Shown piece by piece: positions 31,603 through 58,993 of a stretch of 64,000 nucleotides of DNA. The position numbers and the translations under genes were made by a program. Under the pieces are notes generated by a model. The model was not told the origin of the DNA. It did not search any database and worked only from the letters and a program-made list of their open reading frames with translations. Numbering within the stretch: the first letter of the stretch is position 1; every line of letters begins with the position of its first letter. The stretch covers positions 1 through 64,000 of the forward strand of contig CAMYJU010000001.1 of NCBI GenBank assembly GCA_947258795.1. The letters are read 5' to 3'. Source of the stretch: an uncultured Gammaproteobacteria bacterium. Lineage in GTDB: Bacteria > Pseudomonadota > Gammaproteobacteria > DRJJ01.

Positions 31603-32373
31603 GTGATTCATAAGCTGGCAATCGTTGACGACAAGGCAAGTCTGGCTGATGATGTCGAGGTCGGCCCATACAGTATCATCGGTGAAAATGTAAGCATAGG
31701 CGCCGGCTCGGTAATCGGACCCCATGTAGTGATAAAGGGGCCAACCGAAATAGGTAAAAACAACAAGATATACCAGTTCAGTTCCATAGGTGGAGACCCT
31801 CAGGACAAGAAGTATGCGGGAGAGGAAACCCTGCTGACCATCGGCGATAACAATGTTATCCGTGAGAGTTGTACGATCAGTCGAGGCACAATCCAGGGAG
31901 GGGGAGTCACCCGTCTCGGGAGCGATAACTGGATTATGGCATATGTGCACATCGCACACGATTGCCTGGTAGGTGACAATACCATTTTTGCCAATGCCGC
32001 TACGCTCGCCGGTCATGTGACCATCGAGGATTACGCGATACTCGGTGGATTTAGCAATATCCATCAATTCTGCCGAGTTGGCGCGCACAGTTTCCTGGCC
32101 ATGTCATCTATCGTGGCGATGGATGTGCCGCCTTACGTGATGGCGGCGGGCCACAATGCCGAGCCCTATGGCATCAATACGGAAGGCCTGAAAAGACGTG
32201 GTTTTAGTAAGGAGGCCATACAGGCAATTCGCAGAGCCTACAAGATACTCTACAAATCCGGTATGAAGCTTACTGATGCAATCAATGAGATATCGAAAAT
32301 GGCGAAAACGCATCCCGAGCTCGAGATGTTGACGGAATTTCTGGGCAACAGTGAGCGCGGGGTTATCCGTTAG
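31603..32373 (+). CDS. lpxA: UDP-N-acetylglucosamine acyltransferase LpxA
   Basis: A 256-residue trimeric beta-helix enzyme for the first step of lipid A synthesis. It starts at GTG ([20 protein letters not shown]). Hexapeptide repeats run to about residue 190. The catalytic His is in [13 protein letters not shown], and [19 protein letters not shown] is the family signature before the C-terminal helices. In most gammaproteobacteria the next gene is lpxB; here rnhB follows within about 30 bases, so lpxB must be elsewhere. Confidence 0.96.
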
Positions 32374-32404
32374 TATTGTAAGCTGCAGGGCAAGTCGTTT
32401 AGTT

Positions 32405-33013
32405 GTGTATTACACCAAAGATCAAATCAGAACGTTTATAGACCAACAGCAAGGCAGTTATGCTGGTGTGGATGAGGCCGGGCGCGGGCCGCTGGCCGGT
32501 CCGGTTGTTGCGGCTGCCGTCATACTTGATCCTGAATACCGGATTCAGGGTCTGGCCGACTCCAAAAAACTCACCGAGAAAAAACGTATTCACCTCGAAA
32601 ATGAAATCAGGCAGCACGCTACGGCATGGGCAATTGGTCGGGCCGACGTTGAAGAAATAGACAGTCTGAATATTTTACGAGCCAGCATGCTGGCCATGAG
32701 TCGCGCCTTGACTGCGCTTGAGTGTGCTCCTGATTTCGTTCTTGTTGATGGGAACAAGGTTCCGGAATGTAATTGTTCTGTCTACCCGGTTATAAAAGGG
32801 GATCAGTTGGTTGATGCCATCAGCGCGGCATCAATACTGGCCAAACAGGAACGTGACAGGGAGCTTTGCAGCCTGCATGAGCGATATCCCGAATACGGTT
32901 TTGCAAAACACAAGGGGTATCCAACGCGCATGCACATGGAGGCATTGGATAAATATGGTGTATCTCCAGTGCACAGATTGTCATTCGCCCCGGTCAGACG
33001 GGCGCAAAAGTAA
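32405..33013 (+). CDS. rnhB: Ribonuclease HII
   Basis: A 202-residue endonuclease that cuts at ribonucleotides in DNA and degrades RNA-DNA hybrids. The DEXGRGP motif is [21 protein letters not shown], with [10 protein letters not shown], a catalytic Asp in VLVDGNKVP, and [20 protein letters not shown]. The frame extends upstream to a GTG at 32351 inside lpxA. I prefer the GTG at 32405, which gives the usual family length; confidence in the exact start is moderate. The typical downstream neighbour dnaE is displaced by about 28.6 kb of inserted DNA. Confidence 0.94.
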
Positions 33014-33033: not shown

Positions 33034-33270
33034 TTATTGGCTTGAGGCACATCTGTGCATCGCGCCAGCATGCAGGCCAAGCTCTTTACGTAATATCTTG
33101 ATCGAGCCGGGAGCCTTGATGGCCAGCTTTACTGTGCCTGCTTCCTTGTATTTTACCGATATACTGATGGGTCCCTGGGAGAACAGTTCTTTCACTGTCA
33201 TGTCAGGGTTAACTTGATCGTCGGGGAAAATCAGTACAGACTCACCAGACTTCCTGTCCAGTATCAACAT
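33034..33270 (-). CDS. CsrA-family RNA-binding protein, RsmN/RsmF-like architecture
   Basis: A 78-residue post-transcriptional regulator. The N-terminus MLILDRKSGESVLIF matches CsrA strands 1-2, TVKLAIKAP strand 4 and SIKILRKEL strand 5, with Arg61 at the place of the RNA-binding Arg44 of CsrA. Unlike canonical CsrA (about 61 residues), about 15 residues containing a likely short helix (TVKELF) are inserted after strand 2. That is the arrangement of Pseudomonas RsmN/RsmF. It is transcribed away from the T6SS genes and converges on rnhB. Its ribosome site (AAAAGGAG, 6 bases before ATG) lies in a GGA-loop hairpin, suggesting autoregulation. The RNA target proposal is inference; family membership is well supported. 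Confidence 0.85.
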   Translation of the reverse strand: MLILDRKSGESVLIFPDDQVNPDMTVKELFSQGPISISVKYKEAGTVKLAIKAPGSIKILRKELGLHAGAMHRCASSQ

Positions 33271-33271
33271 G

Positions 33272-33286
33272 CGAAACTCCTTTTCG
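33272..33286 (-). promoter_or_regulatory. GGA-loop hairpin over the csrA-like gene's own ribosome site
   Basis: On the minus strand CGAAA-AGGAG-TTTCG forms a perfect 5 bp stem with the Shine-Dalgarno AGGAG as the loop, ending one base before the ATG. GGA exposed in a short hairpin loop over a ribosome site is the classical CsrA-binding arrangement. Confidence 0.6.
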
Positions 33287-33712: not shown

Positions 33713-33816
33713 CGACATCAGGCATCAAGAAAATATTGCAATCGGGCTGGCAAACCCGTAAGTTTTATGCCATTATGAAACTGCAGGCGGTTTCAGGTTA
33801 GGAATAAAATCGCTGA

Positions 33817-33887: not shown

Positions 33888-33899
33888 CACAAGGATGTG
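33888..33899 (+). promoter_or_regulatory. CsrA-type hairpin over the tssA ribosome site
   Basis: CACA-AGGA-TGTG: a perfect 4 bp stem with AGGA as tetraloop, which is also the Shine-Dalgarno of tssA. ACAAGGATGT (33889-33898) matches ten consecutive positions of the CsrA consensus RUACARGGAUGU. Binding here would block ribosome access to tssA. Confidence 0.65.
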
Positions 33900-33904: not shown

Positions 33905-35008
33905 ATGAATAAGGCTGTACGCCTGGACATAGAAGCTTTGTTGGCTCCAATCGATACGGAGTTCCCAACAGGCAGTGACCTCAGAGAAGATAACTCCCCC
34001 ACATCTGACTACCGGGTATTGCGTGATGCGCGTACGCTTGCGCGCAATAATGAGCGTAGTGCGCTGGCTAATGGTGAAAACTATTTCATTAATGCACATG
34101 ACTGGGAGCCGATACTGGAGCTGGCTCCGGCAATCATTCAGGGCAAAAGCAAGGATATTGAAGTAGCCACATGGCTGATAGAAGCCCTGACGCGGGTGCA
34201 TGGTTTTCATGGGCTTGGCTCGGGTTTCAGTTTAATGCGCCAGTTAATCGAGCAGTATGGATCAGGTCTCCACCCGTTGCCGGATGAAGACGGTATAGCT
34301 TCGCAGCTTACCTCGCTGATAGGCCTGAATGGATTTGGTGGTGAAGGGACACTTATTGCCCCTATACGATCCGTTTATCTGACTGGCGATGATGGCACTT
34401 CGGTAGGGCCATTTGCTGCCTGGCAATGTGAGCAGGCGTTTGAACTCGAGAGGCTATCTGATCCGGCAAAACGAGAAGCCCGGATAGCGCAGGGTGCAGT
34501 TTCCAGACCGGACATAGACCAGGCTGTAAGTGAAACACCGGACAAATTTTTTCAGAATGTCTATGATCAGCTGAATAACGCCATAGCGGAATACAGCACA
34601 TTTCAGGAAGTTCTCAACGAATATTGCAAGGATGACCCGCAACCGACATCCAAGATTATGGAAAACCTGGAGGGCTGTCTGCAAACAATCCATTACATTG
34701 CGGCAGATAAAATCCGGATCGAAGATGAAGATGAAGTGCAGGAGGACACAGGGAAGTCGTCCGGCAAGCGGAACAAGCTGGAAAACAAGTTTTCAATCGA
34801 TACACGGGAAGCGGCACTTAGTGCATTAAGGGATGTCTCGGCATACTTTCGCAGAACCGAACCTCACTCACCTATTTCCTATGCGATTGAACAAGCGGTT
34901 TACTGGAGTCAGCTTCCACTGCCTGCGCTGATCCAGGAACTGATTCCGGACGAGAATGCTCGTAGTAAATATCAAAACCTAACCGGGATCCGTAATGTCG
35001 GAGACTAA
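33905..35008 (+). CDS. tssA: T6SS protein TssA (ImpA N-terminal family)
   Basis: A 367-residue cytoplasmic T6SS protein that caps and primes sheath/tube assembly at the baseplate. The N-terminal ImpA_N domain is evident (about 8-130): [34 protein letters not shown] and [20 protein letters not shown]. The C-terminal part carries a charged linker ([19 protein letters not shown], about 278-297) followed by a conserved helical end ([31 protein letters not shown]). It is the first gene of tssA-B-C and has a strong ribosome site inside a CsrA-type hairpin, so its translation is probably the control point. Confidence 0.93.
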
Positions 35009-35058
35009 AAGCAGGGTCTAATCACTTAAACGATAGTCAAAAGAAGGAGTCAGTAGAT

Positions 35059-35562
35059 ATGGAAAGCATACATGATAAACTGAGACGAGTGCGCAAGCCT
35101 CGTGTACATATCAGTTATGAAGTGGAAACAGAAGGAGCTGTTGCGCAGAAAGAACTCCCGTTTGTAGTAGGTGTGATGGGTGATTTTTCCGGTGACCCGA
35201 CTTCCCCGCTGAAATCACTGAAGGACCGTCGCTTTGTTCAGATCGATCGCGACAACTTCAACAGTGTTCTGGCCAGTATGACCCCTGGCGTAAACATGAA
35301 AGTGAGGAATATCCTTCAGGATGATGATAGTGAGTTTGCGGTTAACCTCAAATTCGAAACCATGGATGATTTTGAGCCAGCTGCAATCGTTAACCAGGTG
35401 GAGCCGCTTAAGAAGTTGATGGAAACGCGGAACAAACTTCGTGATCTGTCAACCAAGGCGGACCGCTCGGAAGACCTGGAAGATATCATCGAGAAAGTTT
35501 TAAACAACAAGACCGATCTGGATGAACTGGCAGAAGCGGTTGGCGCAGAGCAAGGAGAATAA
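35059..35562 (+). CDS. tssB: T6SS contractile sheath small subunit TssB (VipA/ImpB)
   Basis: A 167-residue protein that co-assembles with TssC into the contractile sheath. Family motifs are [31 protein letters not shown] and [18 protein letters not shown] conserved hydrophobic helix near the C-terminus ([19 protein letters not shown]) interacts with TssC/ClpV in characterised systems. The length is typical. It has an AAGGAG ribosome site, lies 50 bases after tssA and ends two bases before tssC. Confidence 0.96.
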
Positions 35563-35564
35563 TC

Positions 35565-37040
35565 GTGAGTGACGCACTAGAAACCAATACCGAGGCGGCC
35601 GGTGAAGCACAGGCTATATCCCTGCTTGATCAGGCCGTTGTTGCAACCAAACAAACCGAAGCGGACGAAGCGCAGGAATTACTTAAAACACTGACCGAGC
35701 AGGCGCTGAATGGAACAGTTACGTGGAACAAGAATATTACTGTAACCTTTCGCAAGGCCATTGATTCTATTGACACGCTTATCAGTAAACAATTGCGTGA
35801 GATCATGCACAATGAGGATTTTCAGAAGCTGGAAGGCAGCTGGCGTGGACTGCATTATCTGGTATCAAATACTGAAACCAGTACCACACTGCGCCTGAAG
35901 ATGATGAATGTCAGCAAGAAGGAAGCAGCCAAGGATCTTTCCAAGGCAGTAGAGTTTGATCAGAGCCAGATTTTCAAGAAAATCTATGAAGGTGAATTCG
36001 GATCACCGGGTGGAGAACCTTATGGTGCGATGATCGGTGATTATGAATTTACCAGTCATCCTGACGACATCGAGCTGCTCAGCAACATGTCGAATGTCGC
36101 TGCGGCAGCATTTTGCCCGTTTATGGCGGCCTCTGACCCAAGCCTGTTCGGGTTTGATGATTGGACAGAACTGTCAAAGCCGCGCGATCTGGCCAAGATA
36201 TTCGATTCGGCAGAATACGTGAAATGGCGTTCATTCCGGGATTCAGAGGATTCCCGTTTCGTTGCCCTGACCATGCCGCGTGTACTGTCACGTCTACCCT
36301 ATGGTAAGGAAACCAGTCCGATTGAGGAATTCGACTACGAGGAGATGGACGACAGCCGTCAGCCTGAGGGCCAGGATTATTGCTGGTCCAATGCTGCATA
36401 CGTGCTGGGCGCCAGGTTGACCAACGCGTTTGCGCAGTTCGGCTGGTGTACGGCGATCCGTGGTGCAGAAGGAGGCGGCCGGGTAGATGATCTGCCGGTA
36501 CACCTTACCACTTCGGATAATGGTGATATCGATATGCGTTGCCCTACCGAGGTGGCTATTACTGATCGTCGTGAAGCGGAACTGAGTGGGCTTGGATTTA
36601 TGCCTTTGTCTCACTACAAGAATACAGATTATGCTGTTTTCTTCGGTGGTCAGACTACCCAGAAAGCGCAGAAATACGATACACCCGAGGCTACAGCCAA
36701 CGCAGCTATCTCTGCACGACTTCCCTATATTATGGCAACCTCGCGTATTGCGCACTACCTCAAGGTCATGGCGCGTGACAAGATTGGTAGTTTCATGGAA
36801 GCGCCAGACATGGAGCACTGGCTCAATCGCTGGATTAACAATTATGTTAACGCCAGTGAAGAGGGTGGCCAGGAAATGCGTGCTAAATACCCGTTGGCCG
36901 AAGCCAAAATACAGGTTACACCTGTTCCGGGTCAGCCTGGCTCTTACAATGCGGTAGCCTGGCTGCGCCCATGGCTGCAAATGGAAGAGTTGACTACCTC
37001 TCTGCGTATGGTTGCACGTATACCGGAGATCAGCAGCTGA
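35565..37040 (+). CDS. tssC: T6SS contractile sheath large subunit TssC (VipB/ImpC)
   Basis: A 491-residue sheath subunit, starting at GTG with AAGGAGAA upstream. Motifs are [71 protein letters not shown] and the C-terminal [11 protein letters not shown] and [18 protein letters not shown]. The length matches canonical TssC, and its pairing with tssB marks it as the main sheath protein. A second TssC-family gene follows after a strong stem-loop. Confidence 0.97.
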
Positions 37041-37056
37041 CAGTAAAGTAAATGCG

Positions 37057-37114
37057 GGCGGATTTTTCCGGTTGATACAATTATCCGTGATATCAGAGAC
37101 CGGGAAAGTCCGCC
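37057..37114 (+). promoter_or_regulatory. Long stem-loop between tssC and the second tssC
   Basis: GGCGGA-TTTTT-CCGG (37057-37071) pairs along 15 positions with CCGG-GAAAG-TCCGCC (37100-37114), with 13 Watson-Crick and two G-U pairs in RNA. The 28-base loop can close further through TGATA/TATCA. No T-run follows, so it is not a classical terminator. It starts 17 bases after the tssC stop and may stabilise the tssABC message or limit read-through. The rest of the 241-base gap shows nothing clear. Confidence 0.6.
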
Positions 37115-37281
37115 AGTCATTCAGTTGTTAGTCAGCAGAAGGAGAGGAGTGACTAATTGAGATAAACAATACCACCGGATAATCGATAAAAGACTTGAAT
37201 ACAATACATCATGGAGGATGATCGTATATAGCCTTGCCAGACAAGTACCGCAAATACAGGGCCTATATATGACCAAGCAGT

Positions 37282-38829
37282 ATGCTGAATAACGAAACAA
37301 ATCAGGCGACAAAAGATGTGCAAAACCTGGGCGGCGTAATGTTTGAGAAGGGTGCGTCGCCTGCTGGAATACTGTCGCTGAAAAATGCGTTTTCTTCCAT
37401 GGTTGATGCCCTTGACGTCGAATCCATTACCAGGCACTGGCTAAAGCATGTTCTTGCTTCCAGTCCCAGAACAAAAGAACATACGAAAGCCTTGATCGAA
37501 AAGGCAATAACAGACATTGATAATCTGCTATCACAGCAGGTCGACGCTATCCTTCATCATAAATCATTCCAGAAAATCGAAGCTAGCTGGCGCAGTCTGC
37601 ATTATCTGGTAGATACAGAGGCGGAGTATGATGAAGAACTGACCGTCAAGATCAAGGTGCTTAATATTAGCTGGGAAGAACTTGCCAACGATGTTTCCCG
37701 TGCCATCGAGTTTGATCAGAGTCAGACGTTTCACAGGATCTATAGTGACGAGTTTGATATGCCAGGTGGTGAACCCTTCGGCGTGATGCTTGGAGATTAT
37801 GAGGTCTCACACAGGGCCAGACCTGGTGTATTCGTTAGTGATATAGAGGTCTTGAGCGATGTTTCCCAGATTGCAACAGCTGCATTATGTCCGTTTATAG
37901 TAAATGCAAGCCACAGGCTGTTCGGTCTGGATGAGTACCGTGAACTGGGTCAACATCCGGCCATTGGATCAATTTTTGATCAGAAAGAATACATCAAGTG
38001 GAGAAGTATGCGGCAACAGGAGGATATGCGTTTTATCGGTATAACACTCCCTAATATCCTGATGCGTGAGCCGTATCAATATGATGGCACGCGCGCAGAA
38101 GGGTTTATATATAAAGAAAGACTAAACAATACTGATAGTGATTTTCTTTGGGGTCATGCATGTTATGCGTTCGGCGGTGTGCTGATCAGGGCCTTTGCCA
38201 ACACAGGCTGGTTTGCCGATATTCGGGGTGGCGTGCACAGCTTTGGAGAAGGTGGTGCTGTGCGTAACCTGCTCTATGCGAGGCATGATCTGGATACAAA
38301 AGGTATTGCAGCAAGACCGGCAAGCAATGTGCAGATTCATGATTATCTTGAACGTGAACTGAGTGATACAGGGTTTATACCGCTATGCAGTTATCACAGT
38401 GCAGAACACAGTGTTTTCTTCAATAACAACTCCTTGCATGAGCCGCCACAGTACGACTCGGAAATCGCCACTGTGAATGCCAGGTTGTCCGCAATGATCC
38501 AGTACATGTTGTGCGTCTCCCGTTTCGGTCATTTCATCAAGGTTATGGCGAGAGACAAGATAGGTTCGTTTATTACGGCCAACGAATGCCAGCGTATGCT
38601 ACAGGACTGGCTGAACGGTTATACCACATCCAGTGAGGGTACCTCTGAGGAACTCAAGGCTCGCTATCCACTGGCGGCATGCAAGGTGGATGTCAAGGAG
38701 CTGGCCGGACGACCTGGTTATTTTACCTGTGTCGTTCATCTGCAACCCCATTTTCAACTTGATCAACTCGTCTCAAGCATACGCCTGGTAACAGAGCTTG
38801 CAGTGGGAACTAATACAGGAAGTAACTAA
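37282..38829 (+). CDS. Second TssC-family protein (ImpD-like, TssC2)
   Basis: A 515-residue paralogue of TssC. It keeps the family core: [69 protein letters not shown] and CVVHLQPHFQLDQLVSSIRLV. Its N-terminus is about 25 residues longer and clearly different, and many surface positions differ from tssC. Side-by-side TssC genes are known from imp-type clusters of Rhizobium and Agrobacterium (ImpC/ImpD). Its exact job is not established; a minor sheath component or cap is possible. No strong ribosome site is visible upstream of the ATG. Confidence 0.9.
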   Translation: MLNNETNQATKDVQNLGGVMFEKGASPAGILSLKNAFSSMVDALDVESITRHWLKHVLASSPRTKEHTKALIEKAITDIDNLLSQQVDAILHHKSFQKIEASWRSLHYLVDTEAEYDEELTVKIKVLNISWEELANDVSRAIEFDQSQTFHRIYSDEFDMPGGEPFGVMLGDYEVSHRARPGVFVSDIEVLSDVSQIATAALCPFIVNASHRLFGLDEYRELGQHPAIGSIFDQKEYIKWRSMRQQEDMRFIGITLPNILMREPYQYDGTRAEGFIYKERLNNTDSDFLWGHACYAFGGVLIRAFANTGWFADIRGGVHSFGEGGAVRNLLYARHDLDTKGIAARPASNVQIHDYLERELSDTGFIPLCSYHSAEHSVFFNNNSLHEPPQYDSEIATVNARLSAMIQYMLCVSRFGHFIKVMARDKIGSFITANECQRMLQDWLNGYTTSSEGTSEELKARYPLAACKVDVKELAGRPGYFTCVVHLQPHFQLDQLVSSIRLVTELAVGTNTGSN

Positions 38830-38830
38830 T

Positions 38831-39640
38831 ATGACAACAGCTAACAGTTATTATCAACAGGGAAATCTGCCATTTGCCATCAGGGAACTGGGCAGGGAGC
38901 TGAGTAAAAATCCGAATGATGCAGCAAAAAGAACTTTCTTTGCCGAACTATTATGTATCAGTGGTGATCTTGAGCGGGCCGATGCGCAACTCGACACACT
39001 GGCTAGCCTGGAGCCGGAAAAGGCGTTGACTATAGGAACCTGGCGTCAGTTGATCAGGGCGGCCAAGGCCAGAAAGGATGTGTATGAACATGGGCGTACG
39101 CCTGAACTGGTAGATGATGCCACCGAGCAAATCAAATGTCTGCTGAATACACAAATAAGCCTGCGAGAAAATGACATAACGTCAGCTGAAGCACAGACAC
39201 GTGAGATGGAAAACAGTCGAAATCCCTGTGCAGCTGTCGTAAACGGAACAAATGTCGACGATGTCCGCGATCTGGATGATACCTGTTCAGGTATGCTCGA
39301 GGTCATGGCGGCCAATGGTCAATACTACTGGGTGGATTTCTCACAAATCAGCACACTTGAATTCGAGCCGCCAGAGCGCCCATTGGACCTGCTCTGGCGC
39401 AAGGCATCCATAGTTTTGCGAAACGGTACAGAAGGAGAAGTGTTTGTTCCTTCAATATACGCAACTCCGACAGAGGATGATGAGGCATTACTAGGAAGAA
39501 GAACAGACTGGCTTGATGAATCCGGACTGGTGCGCGGCCTTGGACAACGGAACTGGCTGGCAGGCGATCAAGCCATCCCTATTCTTGAGATAGAAAGTAT
39601 CGAGTTTACAACTGATTCGACTGGAGTTGTGGAGCACTGA
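38831..39640 (+). CDS. tagJ: T6SS accessory protein TagJ (ImpE family)
   Basis: A 269-residue cytoplasmic accessory protein. The N-terminal half is tetratricopeptide-like (YYQQGNLPFAIRELGRELSK, ELLCISGDLERADAQLDTLA). The C-terminal ImpE domain has MLEVMAANGQYYWVDFSQIS, PLDLLWRKASIVLRNGTEGEV and the late EDDEALLGRRTDWLDES. In Pseudomonas aeruginosa TagJ binds the sheath subunit TssB and influences ClpV-dependent disassembly. It starts one base after tssC2, with AGGA about ten bases upstream; an in-frame TTG at 38798 inside tssC2 is rejected. Its presence places the cluster with HSI-1/imp-like systems. Confidence 0.92.
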   Translation: MTTANSYYQQGNLPFAIRELGRELSKNPNDAAKRTFFAELLCISGDLERADAQLDTLASLEPEKALTIGTWRQLIRAAKARKDVYEHGRTPELVDDATEQIKCLLNTQISLRENDITSAEAQTREMENSRNPCAAVVNGTNVDDVRDLDDTCSGMLEVMAANGQYYWVDFSQISTLEFEPPERPLDLLWRKASIVLRNGTEGEVFVPSIYATPTEDDEALLGRRTDWLDESGLVRGLGQRNWLAGDQAIPILEIESIEFTTDSTGVVEH

Positions 39641-39641
39641 T

Positions 39642-40139
39642 ATGCCACGTATCAGAAGTCATCAACCGATTATGCCGTCCTTGCTGGACAGGTTGATTGA
39701 TGAAAGCCCGCATCAGGCTTTCGAAGTTGTCAAGTCTACCAATGTTTTGCTTGATAAATACAGAAAAAGTATACGCAGGGACCTGGAAAACCTGTTGAAT
39801 ACACGCCTGTACAGACAATCAGAGCTGAGCGCATATCCTGAGCTTGATAAATCAGTTGTCAATTATGGCTTGTCTGATTTTAGTACGGTTCAGTTTGGAT
39901 CGGCTGATCACCGTGAGATGTTTCGTGCATCGCTTGAAGAGGCGATAGCAAAATACGAGACACGTTTTAAATGGGTTCGTGTGGAGATTAACCAGGTTGG
40001 AGATGAAAAGGAACGAACCCTGTATCTAAAGATTAATGCATTACTGATAGTGGAGCCGGACCCTGTTCCGGTATTGTACGATTCGCGCATTAGCGCATTG
40101 GACCGTGCTGTTACATTAAGAGAGTTGCAAAATGGATGA
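39642..40139 (+). CDS. tssE: T6SS baseplate protein TssE (gp25-like)
   Basis: A 165-residue baseplate wedge subunit related to phage T4 gp25. Family features are PSLLDRLIDESP at the N-terminus, SIRRDLENLLNTR and NYGLSDFSTVQF, with the conserved gp25-type EAIAKYETRFKWVRVEI and the strand LYLKINALLIVEPDPVPVLYDS. The ATG follows the tagJ stop by one base and has TGGAG seven bases upstream. It overlaps tssF by 8 bases, indicating coupled translation of the baseplate genes. Confidence 0.94.
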   Translation: MPRIRSHQPIMPSLLDRLIDESPHQAFEVVKSTNVLLDKYRKSIRRDLENLLNTRLYRQSELSAYPELDKSVVNYGLSDFSTVQFGSADHREMFRASLEEAIAKYETRFKWVRVEINQVGDEKERTLYLKINALLIVEPDPVPVLYDSRISALDRAVTLRELQNG

Positions 40140-41964
40140 AGTATTGCTTTCCTATTATAATCGCGAGTTGTCCTATATTCGCAAGATGGGCGCGGAATTC
40201 GCAGATCAACATCCCAAGATTGCGGGGCGGCTTCGGCTGGACAAGGATACAGTAGAGGACCCACATGTTTCGCGCCTGATTGAATCATTTGCTTTTTTGA
40301 CCGCACGCATCAGACATACACTGGATGACAGTTTTCCAGAGCTTACCGAAGCATTAATGGGAGTGCTGTATCCGGACTATCATGCACCGGTACCATCAAT
40401 GAGTGTCGTTAATTTCAGCCTGCTGCCCGAGTTTACCGAAAATCGCAAAATTGCCAGTGATACCATGCTGGTAACTGATTCGAACCCGCTAGGCCAGTGT
40501 TACTACAGGACAGTCGATGAGGTTGATGTCTATCCGCTTAGAATAATGGATACCCAGTTCAACAGCCAGCCTTACAAAGCGCCGGCTTTGCCATCAAAGT
40601 ATACTGAGATACATGGTGCCAACCAGGCAGTCATGCGCATCAGTATTCATGCCGAGCCAGGAACGACTATTTCAGAAATATCACCTGCACAGCTGCAGTT
40701 CTATATCAATGGTCAGCCGCAGCTAACTGGAAAATTATATGAGATGTTGTTGACCCAAGTGACCGGAATGGCATTGGCCAGGGGGCCGGATGATCCCAAT
40801 ACACGGTTTCTCCCAGCGGAAAGGCTGAAATCGTGCGGCCTGAATGATGACAAGTCGGCCATTCCTGTCGATGGGCGTTCGTCACTGGCACATCGGCTAC
40901 TTACTGAATATTTCGCATTCCCCGAGAAATTCATGTTTGTGGAGATAAATGAGCTTGAGAATCTCTGGTCCTCGTTTGAGGAGCAGGCTTATTTGTACAT
41001 CTATTTCAAGCAAACACATCCCGAAATGGTACAGGGGGTTTCAGGCACTACCATGATCCTGGGTTGTGCCCCTGTTGTAAACCTGTTCGAGCAGCCCACT
41101 GAAAGTATACCGGCAGATGAAATCGGCGTTGAGGCGAAACTCAGTGTTGACGCCACACATGCACAATGTGCGGATATACATACGTTAATGCGGGTTTATG
41201 CGCGTAACCAGGATGGAAAGTGTGTCGACCTGCAGCCGTTTTATGGGTCACATCGTAGTACTGAAAAGGATACTGACGCTATTTACTGGAATGCCCGTCG
41301 TGAGACGAGCCATTGGTACAATGGCCGAATCAGCCACGGCATAGATACTTATCTTGCATTTGTAGATTCAGCATTTACTGTTTCTGATCCGGATGGAGAC
41401 TGGATTATCAACGCTGATGCACTTTGTACCAATCGTGACCTTCCGGACAAGCTCCCTTTTGGTCCGGATCAGCCTGGACTGAACTTTCTGGACGGTGGTG
41501 CCGGCGTGCGTATGAAATGCATGACTGCGCCAACATCCACTATTCAGCCGAAGCTGGATGATGCAACTCGATGGCAGTTGATTACACAGTTATCATTGCA
41601 GCATTTTACCTGCAGTGATGGCATGGATGTCCTGAAGGAAACCCTGCATCTGTACAATTTTAGCAGTGCTCCCGATACCCGGGCACTGATAGACGGCATT
41701 ACCGGGATGGAATCGGAGTTAACAACGGCGAGGATAGTGCAGCAGGGCAGGGCTGCTATTTGCCAGGGAACCTGTATTACTCTCGAACTTGATGAGCATC
41801 AGTATAGCGGTAGCGGGATATATCTGTTCACCGAAATTTTAAGCGAGTTTTTCGCACAATACTGTACGATCAATACATTTGTTCAGCTGAATGTAAAGAT
41901 CAAACAAAGACCAGGAAACATGATTGAATGGCCGCCACGGACAGGAAAAAGAGTGCTGATGTAA
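40132..41964 (+). CDS. tssF: T6SS baseplate protein TssF (ImpG/VasA)
   Basis: A 610-residue baseplate wedge protein. It begins MDEVLLSYYNRELSYIRKMG, followed by FADQHPKIAGRLRL and VSRLIESFAFLTARIRHTLDD, the standard TssF N-terminus. ALMGVLYPDYHAPVPSMSV and the mid-protein region LTEYFAFPEKFMFVEI are also family signatures. Length is normal. It overlaps tssE (8 bases) and tssG (37 bases). Confidence 0.96.
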   Translation: MDEVLLSYYNRELSYIRKMGAEFADQHPKIAGRLRLDKDTVEDPHVSRLIESFAFLTARIRHTLDDSFPELTEALMGVLYPDYHAPVPSMSVVNFSLLPEFTENRKIASDTMLVTDSNPLGQCYYRTVDEVDVYPLRIMDTQFNSQPYKAPALPSKYTEIHGANQAVMRISIHAEPGTTISEISPAQLQFYINGQPQLTGKLYEMLLTQVTGMALARGPDDPNTRFLPAERLKSCGLNDDKSAIPVDGRSSLAHRLLTEYFAFPEKFMFVEINELENLWSSFEEQAYLYIYFKQTHPEMVQGVSGTTMILGCAPVVNLFEQPTESIPADEIGVEAKLSVDATHAQCADIHTLMRVYARNQDGKCVDLQPFYGSHRSTEKDTDAIYWNARRETSHWYNGRISHGIDTYLAFVDSAFTVSDPDGDWIINADALCTNRDLPDKLPFGPDQPGLNFLDGGAGVRMKCMTAPTSTIQPKLDDATRWQLITQLSLQHFTCSDGMDVLKETLHLYNFSSAPDTRALIDGITGMESELTTARIVQQGRAAICQGTCITLELDEHQYSGSGIYLFTEILSEFFAQYCTINTFVQLNVKIKQRPGNMIEWPPRTGKRVLM

Positions 41965-42971
41965 GTTCGGCACGACTGGCGAGTGTCAAACGTCTGGGCA
42001 ACGGCAGCCTTTTCAGGCTGGTGCGATCGCTCGAGCGCTATAATGCCTATGATTCAAGGCCCGAACCACATTCCAGGATCGGTAGCGACAGTGCACCTGC
42101 CGACGAGGCTGTCAGGTTCCATGCTGTGCATCATTTCGGTTTCACATCAAGTGAAGTGGAAAATATCCTGCAGCGTACCGGGATACTTGGTGCATGTGAT
42201 GTTTATGATATCGATATCAGTAATATGGGTCTAACCGGTCCGACCGGTGTATTACCCAGTCACTATACACAACTGGTGCAACAACGTATCAAGGAGCATG
42301 ACTATTCACTGTCTGATTTTCTTGATTTGTTCAATCATCGGTTAATCTCACTGTACTATCGGGCCTGGGTAAAATACCGCCTGGCTATCGAGTTCGAAGA
42401 TCACCGCTCACAGGATAAGCCATCACCGGCAACCAGAGCCATGCAGAGCCTGGCCGGGCAATATTCCGGTAAATATTACGAAACACCTCTGTATTATGGC
42501 GGGCATTTTGCAAGATCTTCACGTTCTGCGGCCTCCTTACAGGGGATATTACAGGATTATCTGCAACACGGTGTTGCTATCGACTCTTTTTGCGGCCAAT
42601 GGTTACAGATCAAACCTCGCGACCAGTCCATGATAGGCAGGATGGGGTTTGGTCAAAACAACCGCCTGGGCGACGGTGTTTTGCTAGGCCAGCGAGTATG
42701 GGATGTGCAAAGTAAATGTCGTATCAGAATTGGACCGATCAGTTATGAACAACATGAACAGTTGCTGCCGGATACACAGGCGTTTGTCAACATGGAACGG
42801 CTGATCAAGGCCTATATCCCTTCCCATATACTGGTTGAATTGAACTTTATTATCGAGGATGAGGATATCAAGAGCCAAAGACCTTTGGGCAATAACCTGA
42901 GGTTGGGATGGAATGCCTGGTTAAACTGCAATAATAAACAAAAAAGACAAGCAATTATATGGCTAAAATAA
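41928..42971 (+). CDS. tssG: T6SS baseplate protein TssG (ImpH/VasB)
   Basis: A 347-residue baseplate protein that forms the wedge with two TssF copies. The N-terminal region LFRLVRSLERYNA and RFHAVHHFGFTSSEVENI, the GLTGPTGVLPSHYTQLVQQR motif and DFLDLFNHRLISLYYRAWVKYR are diagnostic. The ATG lies 37 bases inside tssF. This early start gives a short basic N-terminal tail. clpV follows after 66 bases. Confidence 0.95.
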   Translation: MAATDRKKSADVSSARLASVKRLGNGSLFRLVRSLERYNAYDSRPEPHSRIGSDSAPADEAVRFHAVHHFGFTSSEVENILQRTGILGACDVYDIDISNMGLTGPTGVLPSHYTQLVQQRIKEHDYSLSDFLDLFNHRLISLYYRAWVKYRLAIEFEDHRSQDKPSPATRAMQSLAGQYSGKYYETPLYYGGHFARSSRSAASLQGILQDYLQHGVAIDSFCGQWLQIKPRDQSMIGRMGFGQNNRLGDGVLLGQRVWDVQSKCRIRIGPISYEQHEQLLPDTQAFVNMERLIKAYIPSHILVELNFIIEDEDIKSQRPLGNNLRLGWNAWLNCNNKQKRQAIIWLK

Positions 42972-43037
42972 GCGGTCATCGTGCGATCAGGCGCAGGATG
43001 TTGGATACGGAAGTCAAATATTATATATGGAGCGATT

Positions 43038-45752
43038 ATGGAATTTGATCAGTTAGTAAAGCGTATGTCCGAAGAATGCAGGGACTTGTTTGAAAATGCT
43101 GTGGCGACCGCGTCTTCTCGATCACATTTTTATGTAGATATAGAGCACTGGTTCTGGCAGGTACTGGAAAAGCGCGAAAACGAGATTGTCCCGGTACTGA
43201 TGCATTTTGATATTTCAGAAGAAATACTTGCAGATGACTTGCAAAATGCATTCGAGGCTATGAAAACCGGTAATGAAGGCTTTCCGAAGATCTCGCCGGA
43301 TATCGCTCGTTTGTTGTTTGAGGCATGGATGATCGCATCAACACAGTTTTCATCACTGGAAATACGGTCAGTGCATATCCTGCTGGCCCTGCTGGAAAAT
43401 GACGTATTACGTTTGCGCACCGTGAAAATCTCTCCGTGCTTGCAGGTGCTGCATGGGGACGATATCCGTAGCCAGTGTGCAGCCCTGCTTGAGCAAAGCA
43501 AACCGGTACAGGCAGAGTCAGACACAGGTGGCAATATGACAAAAACGCCAGCACTGGACCAGTTTACGATAGACCTGACAGCTGAAGCCAGGGCCGGAAA
43601 AATCGATCCTGTACTGGGCCGGGACAATGAAATACGGCAAATGATCGATATTCTGTGCAGGCGCAGACAGAATAATCCAATACTGACCGGCGAGGCCGGT
43701 GTCGGTAAAACTGCCGTCGTCGAGGGACTGGCACAGCGCATCGCGACAGGGGATGTGCCTGACAGTTTACAGAATGTTTCACTCCGAAGTCTTGATATGG
43801 GTCTGCTCCAGGCTGGTGCGGGTGTCAAGGGTGAGTTTGAAAATCGTCTCAAGAATGTCATCAAGGAAGTACAGAAATCACCCAGGCCGGTAATCATGTT
43901 TATTGATGAAGCGCATACCCTGATCGGTGCCGGCAATCAGGCCGGTGCAGGTGATGCTGCCAATTTGCTCAAGCCTGCACTCGCGCGTGGCGAATTGCGT
44001 ACCATCGCTGCAACAACCTGGGCTGAATATAAAAAGTATGTTGAAACCGATGCAGCACTGACCAGGCGCTTTCAGGTGGTCAAGATTGATGAACCGGATG
44101 AGCAGCAGGCCATTATCATGTTACGAAGCATGGTTGATATGCTGGAGGGGCATCATGGTGTGGTGATACTGGATGAAGCTGTTGTCAGTGCTGTTACCTT
44201 GTCTCAGCGCTATATCTCTGGAAGACAGTTGCCTGATAAGTGCGTGAGTCTGCTTGATACCGCCTGCGCGCGCGTAAACCTGGGATTGCGTACAACCCCG
44301 GCATCGATTGAAAACCGGGAACGGATGATCGACAGTCTGAATACCGAAATTACAAGGATTAAAAGAGAGCAGGCCAGTGGCTACGATCACGAGGAAAGCA
44401 TCACGGAACTGGAAGTAAAGAAAGTGTTTATCGAGGCAGAGCGCAGCTCGCTGGAAAGCTGCTGGCAGGAGGCAAAGGATCTGATACAGCGTATATCTTC
44501 CCTGCGTCGCGAAATCGAACAGGGTCATATCGATTTGAATGATACAGATCAGGAACAGGAAGTATCGACAGATGAGCAAAGCAGGCAGACGGTTGTCCTG
44601 AAAGAAAAAAGACAGCAGCTGGTTGGCCTGCGTAAACAGCTTGCCGAACTGCAGACGGATACGACCATGATGTACGAGTGTGTTGATTCCCAGGTTATCG
44701 CAGAAGTAGTGGCAGACTGGACCGGTATCCCGGTTGGTCGTATGCAATCAGATGAAATCAAGAACGTGCTTTCCTTGCAAAAACACCTGGAGGAGCGTGT
44801 GATAGGGCAGTCTCATGCGCTGGACCTGATTGCCAGGCACATGCATACAGCACGAGCCAAATTGACTGATCCGCGCAGGCCGCTGGGTGTGTTTATGCTG
44901 GTCGGGCCCAGCGGTATCGGCAAGACGGAAACGGCCCTGGCGCTGGCAGAACGGCTTTATGGCTCGGAACGCAATATTACGACTATCAATATGTCCGAGT
45001 TCAAGGAGGAACACAAGGTATCCCTGTTAATGGGATCTCCCCCGGGTTACGTCGGTTATGGTGAGGGCGGCTTGCTCACCGAGGCGGTCAGGCGTAAGCC
45101 CTATAGTGTTGTTTTGCTTGATGAAATTGAGAAGGCACACCCCGGGGTACAGGATATTTTCTACCAGGTGTTTGACAAGGGTGTGCTGCGTGACGGGGAA
45201 GGCCGGGATATCGATTTCAAGAATACGGTTATTATTATGACCAGCAATACGGCCAGTGAACAGATCGAAAAGCTTTGTCAGGACCCGGATACGAGACCGG
45301 CCCCCGAGGCCATGGTTGATGCGATTGCCCCAATGTTACGAGAGGTTTACAAACCGGCATTCCTCGGTCGGATCAATGTTATTCCGTATTACTCGCTGGA
45401 TGAAAAGGCACTTGGGAATATTGCCCGTATCCAGCTGGATGCGATAAAACAACGGGTTCATCAGAATTATCAAACAGAGCTCAAGTACAGCAGTCGGCTT
45501 ATTGATCATATTATTTCCCAATGTCAGCAATCGGATACCGGTGCGCGCCAGATCAATACGGTATTGACCAATACCCTGTTACCGGATTTGTCTGAAACAA
45601 TTCTGAAACATATGGCAAAAGACAAGCCGGTTGACAGGATAGAAGTCGGAATATCTAAAGAGTCGGATTTTGAGATAAAAATAAGGCAGAGAACTCGCCG
45701 TAAAACGACAACAAAAGCGAAGCAGAATACGATTACCAAACAGCAAAAATAG
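43038..45752 (+). CDS. clpV: T6SS sheath-recycling ATPase ClpV (TssH)
   Basis: A 904-residue double-ring AAA+ ATPase of the ClpB/ClpV family that disassembles contracted sheaths. Parts in order are an N-domain (about 1-150), the first AAA module with Walker A GEAGVGKT (Lys224) and Walker B VIMFIDEAHTL, a coiled-coil region (about 420-560), then the second module with GPSGIGKTE (Lys629) and VVLLDEIEKAHPGVQDIF. The last 20 residues are strongly basic, Lys/Thr-rich and probably disordered. The ATG has a GGAGC site upstream; earlier in-frame starts lack one. It is followed by a 307-base gap before hcp. Confidence 0.96.
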   Translation: MEFDQLVKRMSEECRDLFENAVATASSRSHFYVDIEHWFWQVLEKRENEIVPVLMHFDISEEILADDLQNAFEAMKTGNEGFPKISPDIARLLFEAWMIASTQFSSLEIRSVHILLALLENDVLRLRTVKISPCLQVLHGDDIRSQCAALLEQSKPVQAESDTGGNMTKTPALDQFTIDLTAEARAGKIDPVLGRDNEIRQMIDILCRRRQNNPILTGEAGVGKTAVVEGLAQRIATGDVPDSLQNVSLRSLDMGLLQAGAGVKGEFENRLKNVIKEVQKSPRPVIMFIDEAHTLIGAGNQAGAGDAANLLKPALARGELRTIAATTWAEYKKYVETDAALTRRFQVVKIDEPDEQQAIIMLRSMVDMLEGHHGVVILDEAVVSAVTLSQRYISGRQLPDKCVSLLDTACARVNLGLRTTPASIENRERMIDSLNTEITRIKREQASGYDHEESITELEVKKVFIEAERSSLESCWQEAKDLIQRISSLRREIEQGHIDLNDTDQEQEVSTDEQSRQTVVLKEKRQQLVGLRKQLAELQTDTTMMYECVDSQVIAEVVADWTGIPVGRMQSDEIKNVLSLQKHLEERVIGQSHALDLIARHMHTARAKLTDPRRPLGVFMLVGPSGIGKTETALALAERLYGSERNITTINMSEFKEEHKVSLLMGSPPGYVGYGEGGLLTEAVRRKPYSVVLLDEIEKAHPGVQDIFYQVFDKGVLRDGEGRDIDFKNTVIIMTSNTASEQIEKLCQDPDTRPAPEAMVDAIAPMLREVYKPAFLGRINVIPYYSLDEKALGNIARIQLDAIKQRVHQNYQTELKYSSRLIDHIISQCQQSDTGARQINTVLTNTLLPDLSETILKHMAKDKPVDRIEVGISKESDFEIKIRQRTRRKTTTKAKQNTITKQQK

Positions 45753-46059
45753 CGGGTATGTATTGCCATATTATTCTTGGATGTTTTGGAAAAATATGAG
45801 AAGATTCAGGCACAGGTTGTCATAGTGATAACAGTCTGTACAAGTCACATGAAGTGACTTGAAGGAATCTCTGATAAGGTCAGGACGACATGGAAAGATT
45901 ATCAATACCAGCAGCTTATACATATCTTCATGTGAACCCGGGCTCGCAAGCGGGCAGGTCGGGATATTACATCTGGATTTGCCTGGATGATAGCAACCAT
46001 TCACCTGGCATTATTGGCGATAACAAAAATGTGAAACCACCAACACAAGGAAGATAGAT
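45753..46059 (+). promoter_or_regulatory. clpV-hcp gap with palindrome and hcp leader
   Basis: A 307-base gap without a convincing gene. A perfect 8 bp inverted repeat, CAAGTCAC-ATGAA-GTGACTTG, spans 45841-45861. It partly overlaps the -10 of a weak candidate promoter (TTGTCA at 45817, 16-base spacer, TACAAG at 45839), so it could be an operator or a 5' stem-loop. The ribosome site of hcp is in CAACACAAGGA (46041-46051), the same 11 bases as before tssA. No sigma-54 site was found. Confidence 0.45.
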
Positions 46060-46548
46060 ATGTCTATATTTATGCAAATGCCGGGAGTCCAGGGAGAGTC
46101 AGGGGATTCCAACCACAAAAACTGGATGGATCTGGAGTCCATGCAGTGGGGTGTTGATCGTCAGATTACCTCCGGTACCTCTACGATCAATGACAGGGAA
46201 TCATCAAATGCTGTGATCAGCGACTTGCACCTGGTTCGTAAAATGGATAGTGCTACACCGCCTATATTTATTGAATCCTGTTGTGGCAAGGGCAAGGAAA
46301 TCATCATTCATTTGACCAAAACCGGTAGCGGGTCAGGAGCAGACGTTTATATGGAATATAAACTGAAAAATGCCTTAATCAGTTCATACAATGTCAGTGG
46401 TGATTCGCAGGACACTGATCGTCCTATGGAGCATCTCACCATCAGCTTCATCGACGCCGAGGTGAAATATACTCCGTATGATGAAGATGGTAACGCACTG
46501 GCTGCGATTGCTGTAGGCTTTGATACGGCAACTAACACCAAGCGCTAG
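46060..46548 (+). CDS. hcp: T6SS tube protein Hcp (TssD)
   Basis: A 162-residue Hcp1-family protein that forms the inner hexameric tube and is secreted. It starts MSIFMQMPGVQGESGDSNHK. The conserved WMDLESMQWGVDRQ, ISDLHLVRKMDSATPP, KGKEIIIHLTKTG and YKLKNALISSYNVSG regions follow, and HLTISFIDAEVKYTPY closes the barrel. Length is typical. It is separated from clpV by a regulatory gap and ends at a strong terminator, so it is probably its own transcription unit, as expected for a very abundant protein. Confidence 0.97.
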   Translation: MSIFMQMPGVQGESGDSNHKNWMDLESMQWGVDRQITSGTSTINDRESSNAVISDLHLVRKMDSATPPIFIESCCGKGKEIIIHLTKTGSGSGADVYMEYKLKNALISSYNVSGDSQDTDRPMEHLTISFIDAEVKYTPYDEDGNALAAIAVGFDTATNTKR

Positions 46549-46558
46549 TGGCCTGTGG

Positions 46559-46592
46559 CAGGCAGGGGCTGCAAGCTCCTGCCTGTTTTTTT
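46559..46592 (+). terminator. Strong rho-independent terminator after hcp
   Basis: A 12 bp stem starting CAGGCAGG at 46559 and ending CCTGCCTG (one G-U pair inside, loop GCA), followed directly by seven T residues. It starts 11 bases after the hcp stop. Confidence 0.92.
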
Positions 46593-46631
46593 ATTGAATA
46601 TTTATCAGCATTTGGGCACACAGTATCCTGG

Positions 46632-48626
46632 TCAGGGTCTGCCATATGACGGGCTTTGCAAGGTTCTGGCTGTTCTGTTAAGCCTGCGTGCCTCTTTGGC
46701 CTTGATGCCCTTGCGCTTGTAGTACCTGGCCTTGCTTTTGAATTGTTCTGCCAGTGATTTCCTTGCAGCGCTCAGTGGCGGGTAGTCATAAGGCATACGT
46801 TTGCCATACTCATCCATTTGTACTTTCAGCCGATATAGCCGTTTATTACCCCAGGTGTTCTTGATCTTTTTGCTGATCGTGCTGAAATAGGGTGACCAGA
46901 AATGAGCTGCAGCCAGGCTTGGATAGTCCCTTTTCTGTGAATTCTTGTCCAGTTCATAAGCGGCAAGCGCCTGTGCCGCCTCGATCTGCAGGGGATCAAT
47001 TTTCAAATTGCTTCTGAATGGCTCCGGAATATTCATGTCCAGCCTGTTCCGGAAGCTGTCGATCTGGTTGATACGAAGGAAATCAAACTTTTTGTAGGCA
47101 GTGTTCATTTCCGTCACCAGTTTGCTGTAGACATGCTTTTCCGGCTCCGGCACACTGATATCCAGTTTGTCCATTTTATTTCGCAATAACAGCAGTTCTG
47201 CAACATCATCCGGGTTATAGCGCGTCTCATTCCATAACTCATGGTAACTGATAATCAGTGCATCACCGTATTCATGTTGTTCCCGGTTAATCAGATTTTC
47301 GAGTTCAACCAGGCGTGCCGAGTCAGGATATAACTGTTTGATTTTATCTATGCTGGCATTCATAGCGGGAAAATCAGGTACGGCGCCAGTATTGAGCAGC
47401 TTGTGTTTGATCTCGTCGCTGATTTCAGCAATGATGCCTGGCCTCAGTTCCAGATAGGCTGTATTTTTATAGAGATCAGCCAGTTTATTGATCCTGTTAA
47501 ATTCCTGTATGCGTTTTGATATGGGCTGTTGTTTTAAATACTGGATCAGCTGCAGGGCATGTGTTTGATCCTGGGTGGACGAGGCCAGTAAATTGTCCTG
47601 CGCAATACGTGTCTGGATAGCATCTGCTACATGCAGTACGGCATAGGACATTGTGCAGAGCAATGCCAGAATCAACAGTATGCCTGTCCACACATGACGG
47701 GTGTAGCGGAATAAGGTAGTAAACCGCTTAATACTGGTATAACGCTGTTCCTGTTTGAAAGACAAGGCCTTTTTGAGGACCTGCCACTGCCAGAAATTTA
47801 TCTTTCGGGGCCGTTGTGCGCTGATATTCCTTTGTTCAGCAATATCAGCAGCGACGCGATTGAAGGGGTGTTGCCCATTGAGCATTTCATACAATGTACA
47901 GGCAAACGAGAAAACATCATCAGTGCTGGTGGCAACCTGGTCTCTCAGGGTTTCCGGGCTTGCGTAGATTGGTGTAAAACCGGAATAGTCGGTTTCTCTG
48001 GTCTGTGCGGATAATGCTGTTTTACCACTATCTGGCCGGGCAGTACCAAAATCAATTACCTTGATCATACCCTCTGTGGTGATAATGATATTACCTGGTT
48101 TGATGTCGGAATGTATCACTCCCTGACAGTGTGCGTGATGTATTGCATCAGCAGCAGGTACAGCAATTTCCAAGGCTTGCCGGTAATCAAGCCGATTCCC
48201 GACACTGCGCGCCAGTCGTTGTGAAAGCGGTTCGCCATTGAGATATTCCATGGACACAAAGCAATACTGTTCATCGCAATCGTAGTCGTAAACCCTGATG
48301 ATGTTAGGGTGACAGAGGTTTCTGGTAGTCAGGGCTTCGTGTAATGTAATACCGGAGGCTGTATCTGTATCATGCAGATGCTGATTACTGACTTTCAGTA
48401 CAATTTCCCCGTAGCTGTCACTTTCATGTATGGTAGCCAGCAGATCACGTGCCTTGTATATATTACTGGTGCCACCTGTGGCAATCAGGCTGGTTAACAG
48501 ATAGCGGTCTTTAAGGACCGTACCTTTTGGCAGGGAGGAATTAAGGTGCTCAGATCTGTCGCGGGGACGCGCCAGGGTGGCAGGTTCAGCAACTGCGGGG
48601 TTTATGGGGGTTCCATCCCTGGTCAT
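46632..48626 (-). CDS. ppkA: T6SS Ser/Thr protein kinase (PpkA-like)
   Basis: A 664-residue transmembrane Hanks-type kinase. The kinase domain covers about residues 38-300: glycine loop ATGGTSNIYKAR, Lys78 in IVLKVSN, catalytic loop HSDIKPGN (172-179), IDFGTA and YASPE. One membrane segment lies at about 312-334. The roughly 330-residue periplasmic part is helical and charged, and I see no von Willebrand domain of the kind in P. aeruginosa PpkA. It probably phosphorylates Fha and TssL, opposed by PppA. I choose the second ATG (48626), which has AGGG six bases upstream; the first is at 48632. It is convergent with hcp and divergent from fha. Confidence 0.88.
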   Translation of the reverse strand: MTRDGTPINPAVAEPATLARPRDRSEHLNSSLPKGTVLKDRYLLTSLIATGGTSNIYKARDLLATIHESDSYGEIVLKVSNQHLHDTDTASGITLHEALTTRNLCHPNIIRVYDYDCDEQYCFVSMEYLNGEPLSQRLARSVGNRLDYRQALEIAVPAADAIHHAHCQGVIHSDIKPGNIIITTEGMIKVIDFGTARPDSGKTALSAQTRETDYSGFTPIYASPETLRDQVATSTDDVFSFACTLYEMLNGQHPFNRVAADIAEQRNISAQRPRKINFWQWQVLKKALSFKQEQRYTSIKRFTTLFRYTRHVWTGILLILALLCTMSYAVLHVADAIQTRIAQDNLLASSTQDQTHALQLIQYLKQQPISKRIQEFNRINKLADLYKNTAYLELRPGIIAEISDEIKHKLLNTGAVPDFPAMNASIDKIKQLYPDSARLVELENLINREQHEYGDALIISYHELWNETRYNPDDVAELLLLRNKMDKLDISVPEPEKHVYSKLVTEMNTAYKKFDFLRINQIDSFRNRLDMNIPEPFRSNLKIDPLQIEAAQALAAYELDKNSQKRDYPSLAAAHFWSPYFSTISKKIKNTWGNKRLYRLKVQMDEYGKRMPYDYPPLSAARKSLAEQFKSKARYYKRKGIKAKEARRLNRTARTLQSPSYGRP

Positions 48627-48627
48627 A

Positions 48628-48639
48628 TACATCCCTGTA
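48628..48639 (-). promoter_or_regulatory. CsrA-type hairpin over the ppkA ribosome site
   Basis: On the minus strand TACA-GGGA-TGTA forms a perfect stem with GGGA in the loop, directly before the preferred ppkA start. CTACAGGGATGT matches 11 of 12 positions of the CsrA consensus. A second hairpin, AGATGG-TATTGA-CCATCT, abuts it upstream (48639-48656). Confidence 0.65.
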
Positions 48640-48656
48640 GATGGTCAATACCATCT

Positions 48657-48952
48657 TATGCAAATTCCGCCTCAGCAAGTATACTGAACTGTGGGCGCGA
48701 AATTAACCATATAAAAAATAAGCTTGATATTACAGCTCGTATTATTATAGTACTAGCTATAGGGTTATATTAACAGTACTGCTTTCACGTTAGCAGATAG
48801 TACTTGCACGTATTTTGCAGATTGTTATTATTGACACAAGGATGAACTGCACGCACTGACCGTAATTGGAAACCGGTCGGCAGTATTGATGCGTGACAGT
48901 GTGGCAACGCAAACTTCAGGCTATAGGTTTGCGCGCATACATGGAGGTAATT
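48657..48952. promoter_or_regulatory. Divergent ppkA / fha control region
   Basis: AT-rich divergent region of about 300 bases with no gene. On the + strand TTGCAC (48814), a 16-base spacer and TATTAT (48836 minus about 10) form a weak promoter candidate. ACACAAGGATGA (48834-48845) matches 10 of 12 CsrA consensus positions and would lie at the 5' end of the fha leader. fha itself has an ordinary GGAGG site. Confidence 0.35.
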
Positions 48953-50224: not shown

Positions 50225-50270
50225 TAAACATACTGTAACATGGAAGCTTACAGTCAGATAACAGGGATGA

Positions 50271-50915: not shown

Positions 50916-50946
50916 TAGTCCGGAATAACAGGGAGAGTTGAGTAAA

Positions 50947-52287: not shown

Positions 52288-52316
52288 GGATCAAACAACA
52301 AACTCAGGAAACAATC

Positions 52317-52394
52317 ATGGATGAGATAACTGTGAACAAACTGTCAGTTGACTGGCAGGTAACGGCAATCGCTTTATACCAGGCCAGGGTGTAA
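52317..52394 (+). CDS. Possible 25-residue leader peptide between tssK and tssL
   Basis: A short frame MDEITVNKLSVDWQVTAIAL... ends 8 bases before tssL. It has no clear ribosome site and no recognised family. It fills the 115-base gap between tssK and tssL and could be a coupling leader, or simply chance. Confidence 0.2.
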   Translation: MDEITVNKLSVDWQVTAIALYQARV

Positions 52395-52402
52395 TTGGTA
52401 TC

Positions 52403-53803: not shown

Positions 53804-53824
53804 AACGGAACAAGAACATCAGAG

Positions 53825-58890: not shown

Positions 58891-58920
58891 AGAATGATAT
58901 TGGTAAAGCCAATATATTAG

Positions 58921-58985: not shown

Positions 58986-58993
58986 GCCGTAAT

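Follow-up and report, generated by a model that had tools for sequence, protein, structure and literature searches.

What does a second, rearranged member of the CsrA family do beside a type VI secretion system (T6SS)? The question is raised by a gammaproteobacterial DNA stretch of 64,000 nucleotides (hereafter the window), in which a short ORF lies between rnhB and a set of T6SS genes. An earlier note on this DNA had taken the ORF for an RsmN/RsmF-type CsrA gene and its product for a dedicated regulator of the neighboring T6SS. Here, we analyzed the protein, its locus in related genomes, and the leaders of the T6SS genes. The features discussed are collected in Table 1.

Table 1. Features of the csrA variant locus and of related units (window positions unless another locus is named)
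Feature	Position	Strand	Evidence
rnhB, conserved neighbor of the csrA variant	32351..33013	+	Pfam; near the variant in 8/8 genomes of the clade
RsmN/RsmF-type CsrA-family gene, 78 aa	33034..33270	-	PF02599, profile search, fold match, purifying selection
CGAAA-AGGAG-UUUCG, SD of the variant in a hairpin loop; candidate autoregulatory site	33272..33286	-	5-bp stem, also in G001
Conserved block GGGCTGGCAAACCCGTAAG...TGCCATTAT in the csrA-tssA spacer	33744..33776	+	Alignment with G001, spacer otherwise diverged
CACA-AGGA-UGUG hairpin at the tssA SD, candidate CsrA site	33888..33899	+	11/12 match to SELEX consensus RUACARGGAUGU
tssA (ImpA_N), first T6SS gene	33905..35008	+	Pfam
T6SS cluster tssABC1C2-tagJ-EFG-clpV-hcp-kinase-fha-tssJKLM-tagF-pppA-vgrG, filling the rnhB-dnaE interval	33905..60769	+	
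ACAAGGA at the hcp SD	46045..46051	+	Kept in G001
T6SS Ser/Thr kinase gene	46632-48632	-	Kinase Pfam
UAC-AGGGAU-GUA at the start of the T6SS Ser/Thr kinase gene	48628..48639	-	Site scan
ACAGGGA at the tssJ SD	50261..50267	+	ORF scan
ACAGGGA at the tssK SD	50928..50934	+	ORF scan
ACAGGGA at the tssM SD, in a GGA-loop hairpin	53827..53833	+	ORF scan
ACAAGGA at the vgrG SD	58979..58985	+	Lost in G001
CN-hydrolase/C39 - Ser/Thr kinase - csrA variant units of G290, G044, G184	L028:9934-13178, L029:9894-13008, L030:9881-12987		

The ORF Encodes an RsmN/RsmF-Type Protein of the CsrA Family

The product of the ORF matches the Pfam CsrA model with 42 bits (cut-off 27), while its scores of 36 and 31 bits against the NCBIfam csrA equivalog models TIGR00202 and NF002469 stay below the respective cut-offs of 70.1 and 73. 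Such sub-threshold scores are expected because the variant bears an insert, and it is not a canonical CsrA. The insert comprises 17 residues (DDQVNPDMTVKELFSQG, about residues 17-33) between strands 2 and 3 and aligns with the insert of RsmN/RsmF with one gap. In the AlphaFold2 model of the monomer (mean pLDDT 76) a helix is predicted at residues 26-29, within the insert and ahead of the next strand, whereby this helix is short and of moderate confidence. The description given in the earlier note, of a CsrA-family protein with Arg61 and extra residues with a likely helix between strands 2 and 3, is thus borne out. A profile search with 19 insert-bearing relatives ranked RsmF (4k59) and RsmN (4kji) first (2.6e-11 and 3.2e-11, 46 bits) and aligned both of them through the insert, whereas canonical CsrAs were recovered only as two pieces flanking it. 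RsmN/RsmF were also the best matches when the model was compared to the PDB with Foldseek (probability 0.97-0.99, next match 0.28), so that profile and fold both agree with the assignment to this type. Designed TIM barrels, which came out above CsrA in a single-sequence PDB search, are repeat artefacts, and the profile search was used instead.

The features that define RsmN (PMC3791407) were checked singly. The insert and the helix are present, as are the equivalents of RsmN Arg62 (Arg61 in the variant) and of the Arg8-Glu64 salt-bridge residues (R6 and E63, which do not vary within the rnhB-linked clade described below). Across the 19 relatives, whose alignment spans the insert, I14, F30, and R61 are invariant, and the insert region has the common motif P-x-M-T-V-x-E-L-F-x-x-G-P-I. 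The Gly-Ile pair that closes the inserted helix on its C-terminal side, which was reported for the ten Pseudomonas proteins (PMC3791407), is absent; the variant has G33-P34-I35 with Pro for Gly, and it is therefore called RsmN-type here rather than RsmN. Perhaps the Gly-Ile feature is not essential to the type. The C terminus of RsmN/RsmF is truncated and lacks the canonical helix; for the variant, no such helix is predicted, and the model has a turn of 3 residues (66-68) with disorder beyond. The variant differs from P. aeruginosa RsmN/RsmF in one extra insert residue and in a 14-residue unconserved tail. It also differs in gene place, since P. aeruginosa rsmN is located between PA5183 and PA5184 (PMC3791407). 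Orthology to Pseudomonas rsmN is not indicated, as the locus differs and RsmN falls outside the rnhB-linked clade in a short-sequence tree, there with weak support. With the canonical proteins RsmA, RsmE, and CsrA the variant shares the key RNA-contacting arginine and the expected ANGGA-type target, but these proteins lack the insert and form a domain-swapped dimer. The RsmN/RsmF type is characterized by a dimer that is not domain-swapped and by binding to ANGGAN hairpins.

In comparison to the sister species (G001, MAG HyVt-414), residues 1-68 of the variant are conserved and a tail of ~10-14 residues is not. The 68 codons compared between the window genome (G000) and G001 contain 22 synonymous and 8 non-synonymous differences; therefore, the gene is under purifying selection and the protein is maintained. 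On this sequence evidence, the ORF is a real gene for an RsmN/RsmF-type CsrA-family protein. A second, canonical csrA, for which the earlier note had suggested a search, is present as well, as the 3.36-Mb, 97% complete genome holds exactly one further PF02599 match (C26:26411, 91 bits). Therefore, the variant is not the sole CsrA of the cell.

The Variant Gene Stays With rnhB and Adjoins Two Unrelated T6SSs

As the earlier note had stated, the variant gene lies beside tssA and is divergent from it. The two genes are separated by 634 bp, and the variant gene is convergent with rnhB. Past the T6SS cluster, dnaE starts at 61645. The conserved block of the csrA-tssA spacer is a possible promoter of the T6SS operon, with putative -35 and -10 elements at a spacing of about 17 bp. 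No RNA family or riboswitch was recognized in this spacer, the sole match (E 0.25) being far under the gathering score. Elsewhere in the window, an ordinary t44 RNA (RF00127, 19720-19823) precedes an ORF at 19850. Within the cluster, two tandem VipB/TssC sheath genes (35565-37040 and 37282-38829) are 42% identical over the aligned part, an arrangement that also occurs in several further genomes of the class.

Matches to the variant were found in 18 of 369 sampled genomes of the gammaproteobacterial class, distributed over many families. The eight closest ones, the window's own and seven others with 87-49% identity, are all located near rnhB and belong to G000, G001, G090, G002, G159, G044, G184, and G290 (the rnhB-linked clade). 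A single-protein scan of genome contigs was too narrow and found the sister MAG HyVt-414 alone; order-level searches around G044, G090, and G002 yielded zero new orthologs because those orders contain few genomes, and a class sample around G310 comprised almost the same set.

TssC and the rnhB-linked variant occur together in three genomes (G000, G001, and G090), and in all three the T6SS is adjacent to the variant gene. Two unrelated T6SSs are involved. G000 and G001 carry the system of the window with the divergent adjacency kept, while the system of G090 differs from it (22-25% identity for tssK/L/M, 42% for TssC). The end of the interval is common to the window genome, G090, and G002 (a 112-115 aa protein, dnaE, and accA), and G001 shares that protein and dnaE. 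The T6SSs thus occupy the stretch from rnhB to dnaE behind the variant gene.

TssC was not found in G002, G159, G044, G184, G290, and G284. The first five of these carry rnhB-linked orthologs, a finding that the earlier note itself had named as refuting its proposal; therefore, the gene is not T6SS-specific. The survey for co-occurrence, which the note had also put forward, gave no excess, with TssC in 4 of the 18 genomes with insert-type csrA compared to 70 of the 369 overall. Around the insert-type CsrA genes outside the rnhB-linked clade (L032-L044), there was no match to the T6SS proteins of the window. Lone TagF-domain genes without TssC were observed in G002 (L026:10438-11499, divergent from the csrA variant) and in G159 (L162:8392-9408), in the latter case near the end of another contig that also has a Ser/Thr-kinase-like gene; it is possible that these are T6SS remnants or cases of reuse. 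In G044, G184, and G290, genes for a CN-hydrolase/C39 peptidase and a Ser/Thr kinase form a unit with the csrA variant, which is followed by Tad-pilus genes. The wider survey also returned a 150-aa protein of G132 (L018:1252-1701) in which an insert-type CsrA is joined to a Cro/C1-type helix-turn-helix domain, an RNA- and DNA-binding regulator in one chain, as well as eight insert-type CsrA profile matches in the 4.5-Mb genome G370 (L120 and others) and three in G310.

CsrA-Type Sites Accumulate at the Shine-Dalgarno Sequences of the T6SS Genes

The sequence ACARGGA forms the core of the SELEX consensus for CsrA. It is present at Shine-Dalgarno (SD) spacing in seven of the 19 T6SS ORFs (tssA, hcp, kinase, tssJ, tssK, tssM, and vgrG) compared to four among 343 ORFs outside the T6SS (Fisher p about 1e-7), whereby the motif had been spotted in the tssA leader before testing, though it is the published consensus. 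The scan covered 438 kb, made up of contig C1 together with 100 kb from C2 and 20 kb from C26, and used the longest ORFs with mechanically called starts, allowing in-frame starts within the first 45 codons. AGGA alone at the SD is not enriched in T6SS ORFs. When only ORFs with any ANGGA-type SD were considered, ACARGGA was found in 7 of 13 T6SS ORFs and in 4 of 70 others (p about 1e-4). Therefore, the enrichment exceeds mere SD strength. Among 184 T6SS genes from clusters in 20 further gammaproteobacterial genomes, a single one has ACARGGA at the SD (p about 1.5e-7), and the site load is therefore not a property of T6SSs generally.

A genome scan with ACANGGATGT yielded 50 sites. Only those at tssA and the T6SS kinase gene are placed at SD spacing ahead of a long ORF with a credible start, and the only two correctly placed ACANGGAUGU sites of the genome are located there as well. 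The tssA SD (ACACAAGGAUGUGA) has its AGGA in the loop of a CACA/UGUG stem. The 14 bases at this site (ACACAAGGATGTGA) are identical in G001, including flanks beyond the SD, in a spacer that has otherwise diverged, and the hairpin is part of the MFE fold in both genomes. The T6SS of G001 has an additional site at tssB. In that of G090 only one leader, tssC, has ACARGGA. Stems of at least 3 bp are more frequent among the leaders of T6SS genes (5/19) than among other leaders (25/330); several leader stems have just 3-4 bp, with individual p values of 0.02-0.3 in flank shuffling. Hairpin strength alone was dropped as a discriminator, the whole-leader fold energies being not unusual. The informative feature of the T6SS leaders is the ACARGGA context.

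The Leader of the Variant Gene Carries a Candidate Autoregulatory Hairpin

The SD of the variant gene itself is located in a hairpin loop. In the eight rnhB-linked orthologs AAGGAG is constant, whereas the flanks change pairwise (CGAA/UUCG, UGAA/UUCA, GAA/UUC, and GGA/UCC). In the six orthologs other than those of the window genome and G001, the stems have 3-4 bp with changed sequence in five cases and 2 bp in the sixth. This pattern is based on four lineages with individually weak stems (p 0.015-0.31), and the whole-leader MFE fails to single out the hairpin. In G290, G044, and G184 (L028-L030), the first gene of the csrA variant unit is led by UUAAC[ANGGA..]GUUAA (TTAAC[ANGGA..]GTTAA in the DNA), in which N is A, U, or G and the 5-bp stem is unchanged. 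This looks like the pattern of a CsrA site in which the specified bases alone are held.

Discussion

Taken together, our data suggest that the T6SS is held back at translation by the RsmN-type protein, the ordinary CsrA, or both. There is a known precedent for such control, as RsmN and RsmA of P. aeruginosa repress the T6SS genes tssA1 and fha1 (PMC3791407, PMC6061880). For fha1 this occurs via an SD hairpin with AAGGA, and Hcp1 is secreted by the double mutant (PMC6061880). The same mechanism explains the present locus best. We favor, with a probability of roughly 60%, that the RsmN-type protein represses both the T6SS and itself at translation and shares its sites with canonical CsrA. A dimer of the variant would bind the GGA loops at the SDs of tssA, kinase, hcp, tssJ/K/M, and vgrG and block ribosome entry, so that the T6SS would be switched off post-transcriptionally until the RsmN-type protein has been titrated away or depleted. 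Through the hairpin at the SD of its gene, the variant would also repress its own translation. Canonical CsrA very probably binds the same T6SS leader sites, so that the two proteins would act side by side with a division of labor, much as fha1/tssA1 are under the joint control of RsmA and RsmN. In favor of this mechanism we count the RsmN type of the protein, the site excess, the conservation of the tssA and hcp sites, the adjacency to two unrelated T6SSs, the L028-L030 hairpin, and the P. aeruginosa precedent; against it count that canonical CsrA could suffice, that the variant occurs without TssC, that G090 has a single such leader, and that the vgrG site is lost in G001.

It might also be that canonical CsrA alone controls the T6SS and that the RsmN-type gene is an ordinary housekeeping neighbor of rnhB, beside which the T6SS came to lie by chance. 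The canonical gene does exist in the genome, orthologs of the variant adjoin rnhB in the absence of a T6SS, and there is no genome-wide co-occurrence. Against it, the sites are nearly absent from other T6SSs of the class (1/184). Moreover, the adjacency arose with two unrelated T6SSs, a lone TagF is located there in G002, and in G044, G184, and G290 the variant is also part of a unit with a CsrA-type hairpin. We regard this explanation as unlikely, though it deserves some weight. That the sites are merely strong SDs of a horizontally acquired operon, with no regulatory meaning, would agree with the commonness of AGGA-type SDs and with the lack of enrichment of AGGA alone, but the enrichment needs the ACA context, it persists among ORFs with ANGGA-type SDs, and in the tssA leader the conservation extends into the flanks past the SD, which renders this reading improbable.

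A further alternative, in which the variant serves this T6SS exclusively and moves along with it, could account for the divergent adjacency retained in the sister species and for the strong sites in the T6SS leaders. Here, it was already weakened by the five TssC-less genomes that keep the gene, and the constant neighbor is rnhB and not the T6SS; we therefore consider it very improbable. Thus, from the proposal of the earlier note, the link to the T6SS and a probable action on it stand, whereas the dedication does not: the variant probably regulates this T6SS without being devoted to it.

For a CsrA paralog whose gene adjoins a secretion system, Legionella CsrT is a precedent (cited in PMC7366521); as the citing paper describes it, CsrT is encoded next to a set of type IV secretion system (T4SS) genes. 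According to that account CsrT belongs to a conjugative T4SS on mobile elements, whereas the gene described here encodes an RsmN-type fold and lies with a T6SS at a chromosomal rnhB-dnaE locus. In the open literature we found no report of a CsrA paralog beside a T6SS, which is a weak negative. RsmN has been described as the product of a gene duplication in pseudomonads with homologs within Pseudomonas (PMC3791407), whereas insert-type CsrAs occur in 18 of the 369 gammaproteobacterial genomes and in many families, and one insert-type clade sits at a fixed locus that received two different T6SSs. A bolder extension of the favored mechanism, which we hold to be rather unlikely as a whole, is that the RsmN-type CsrA, set beside rnhB, acts as a local translational gatekeeper, and that unrelated T6SSs and, in another lineage, the kinase unit near the Tad-pilus genes settled there and their leaders evolved CsrA sites. 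If the T6SS is held off by a local RsmN-type protein via dense leader sites, the locus would offer a compact case for the role of a second, rearranged CsrA as compared to the global CsrA, and the prediction is confined to a few RNA hairpins. If the gatekeeper reading is true as well, the T6SS would be paired with a linked translational repressor that limits itself and is distinct from the global CsrA.
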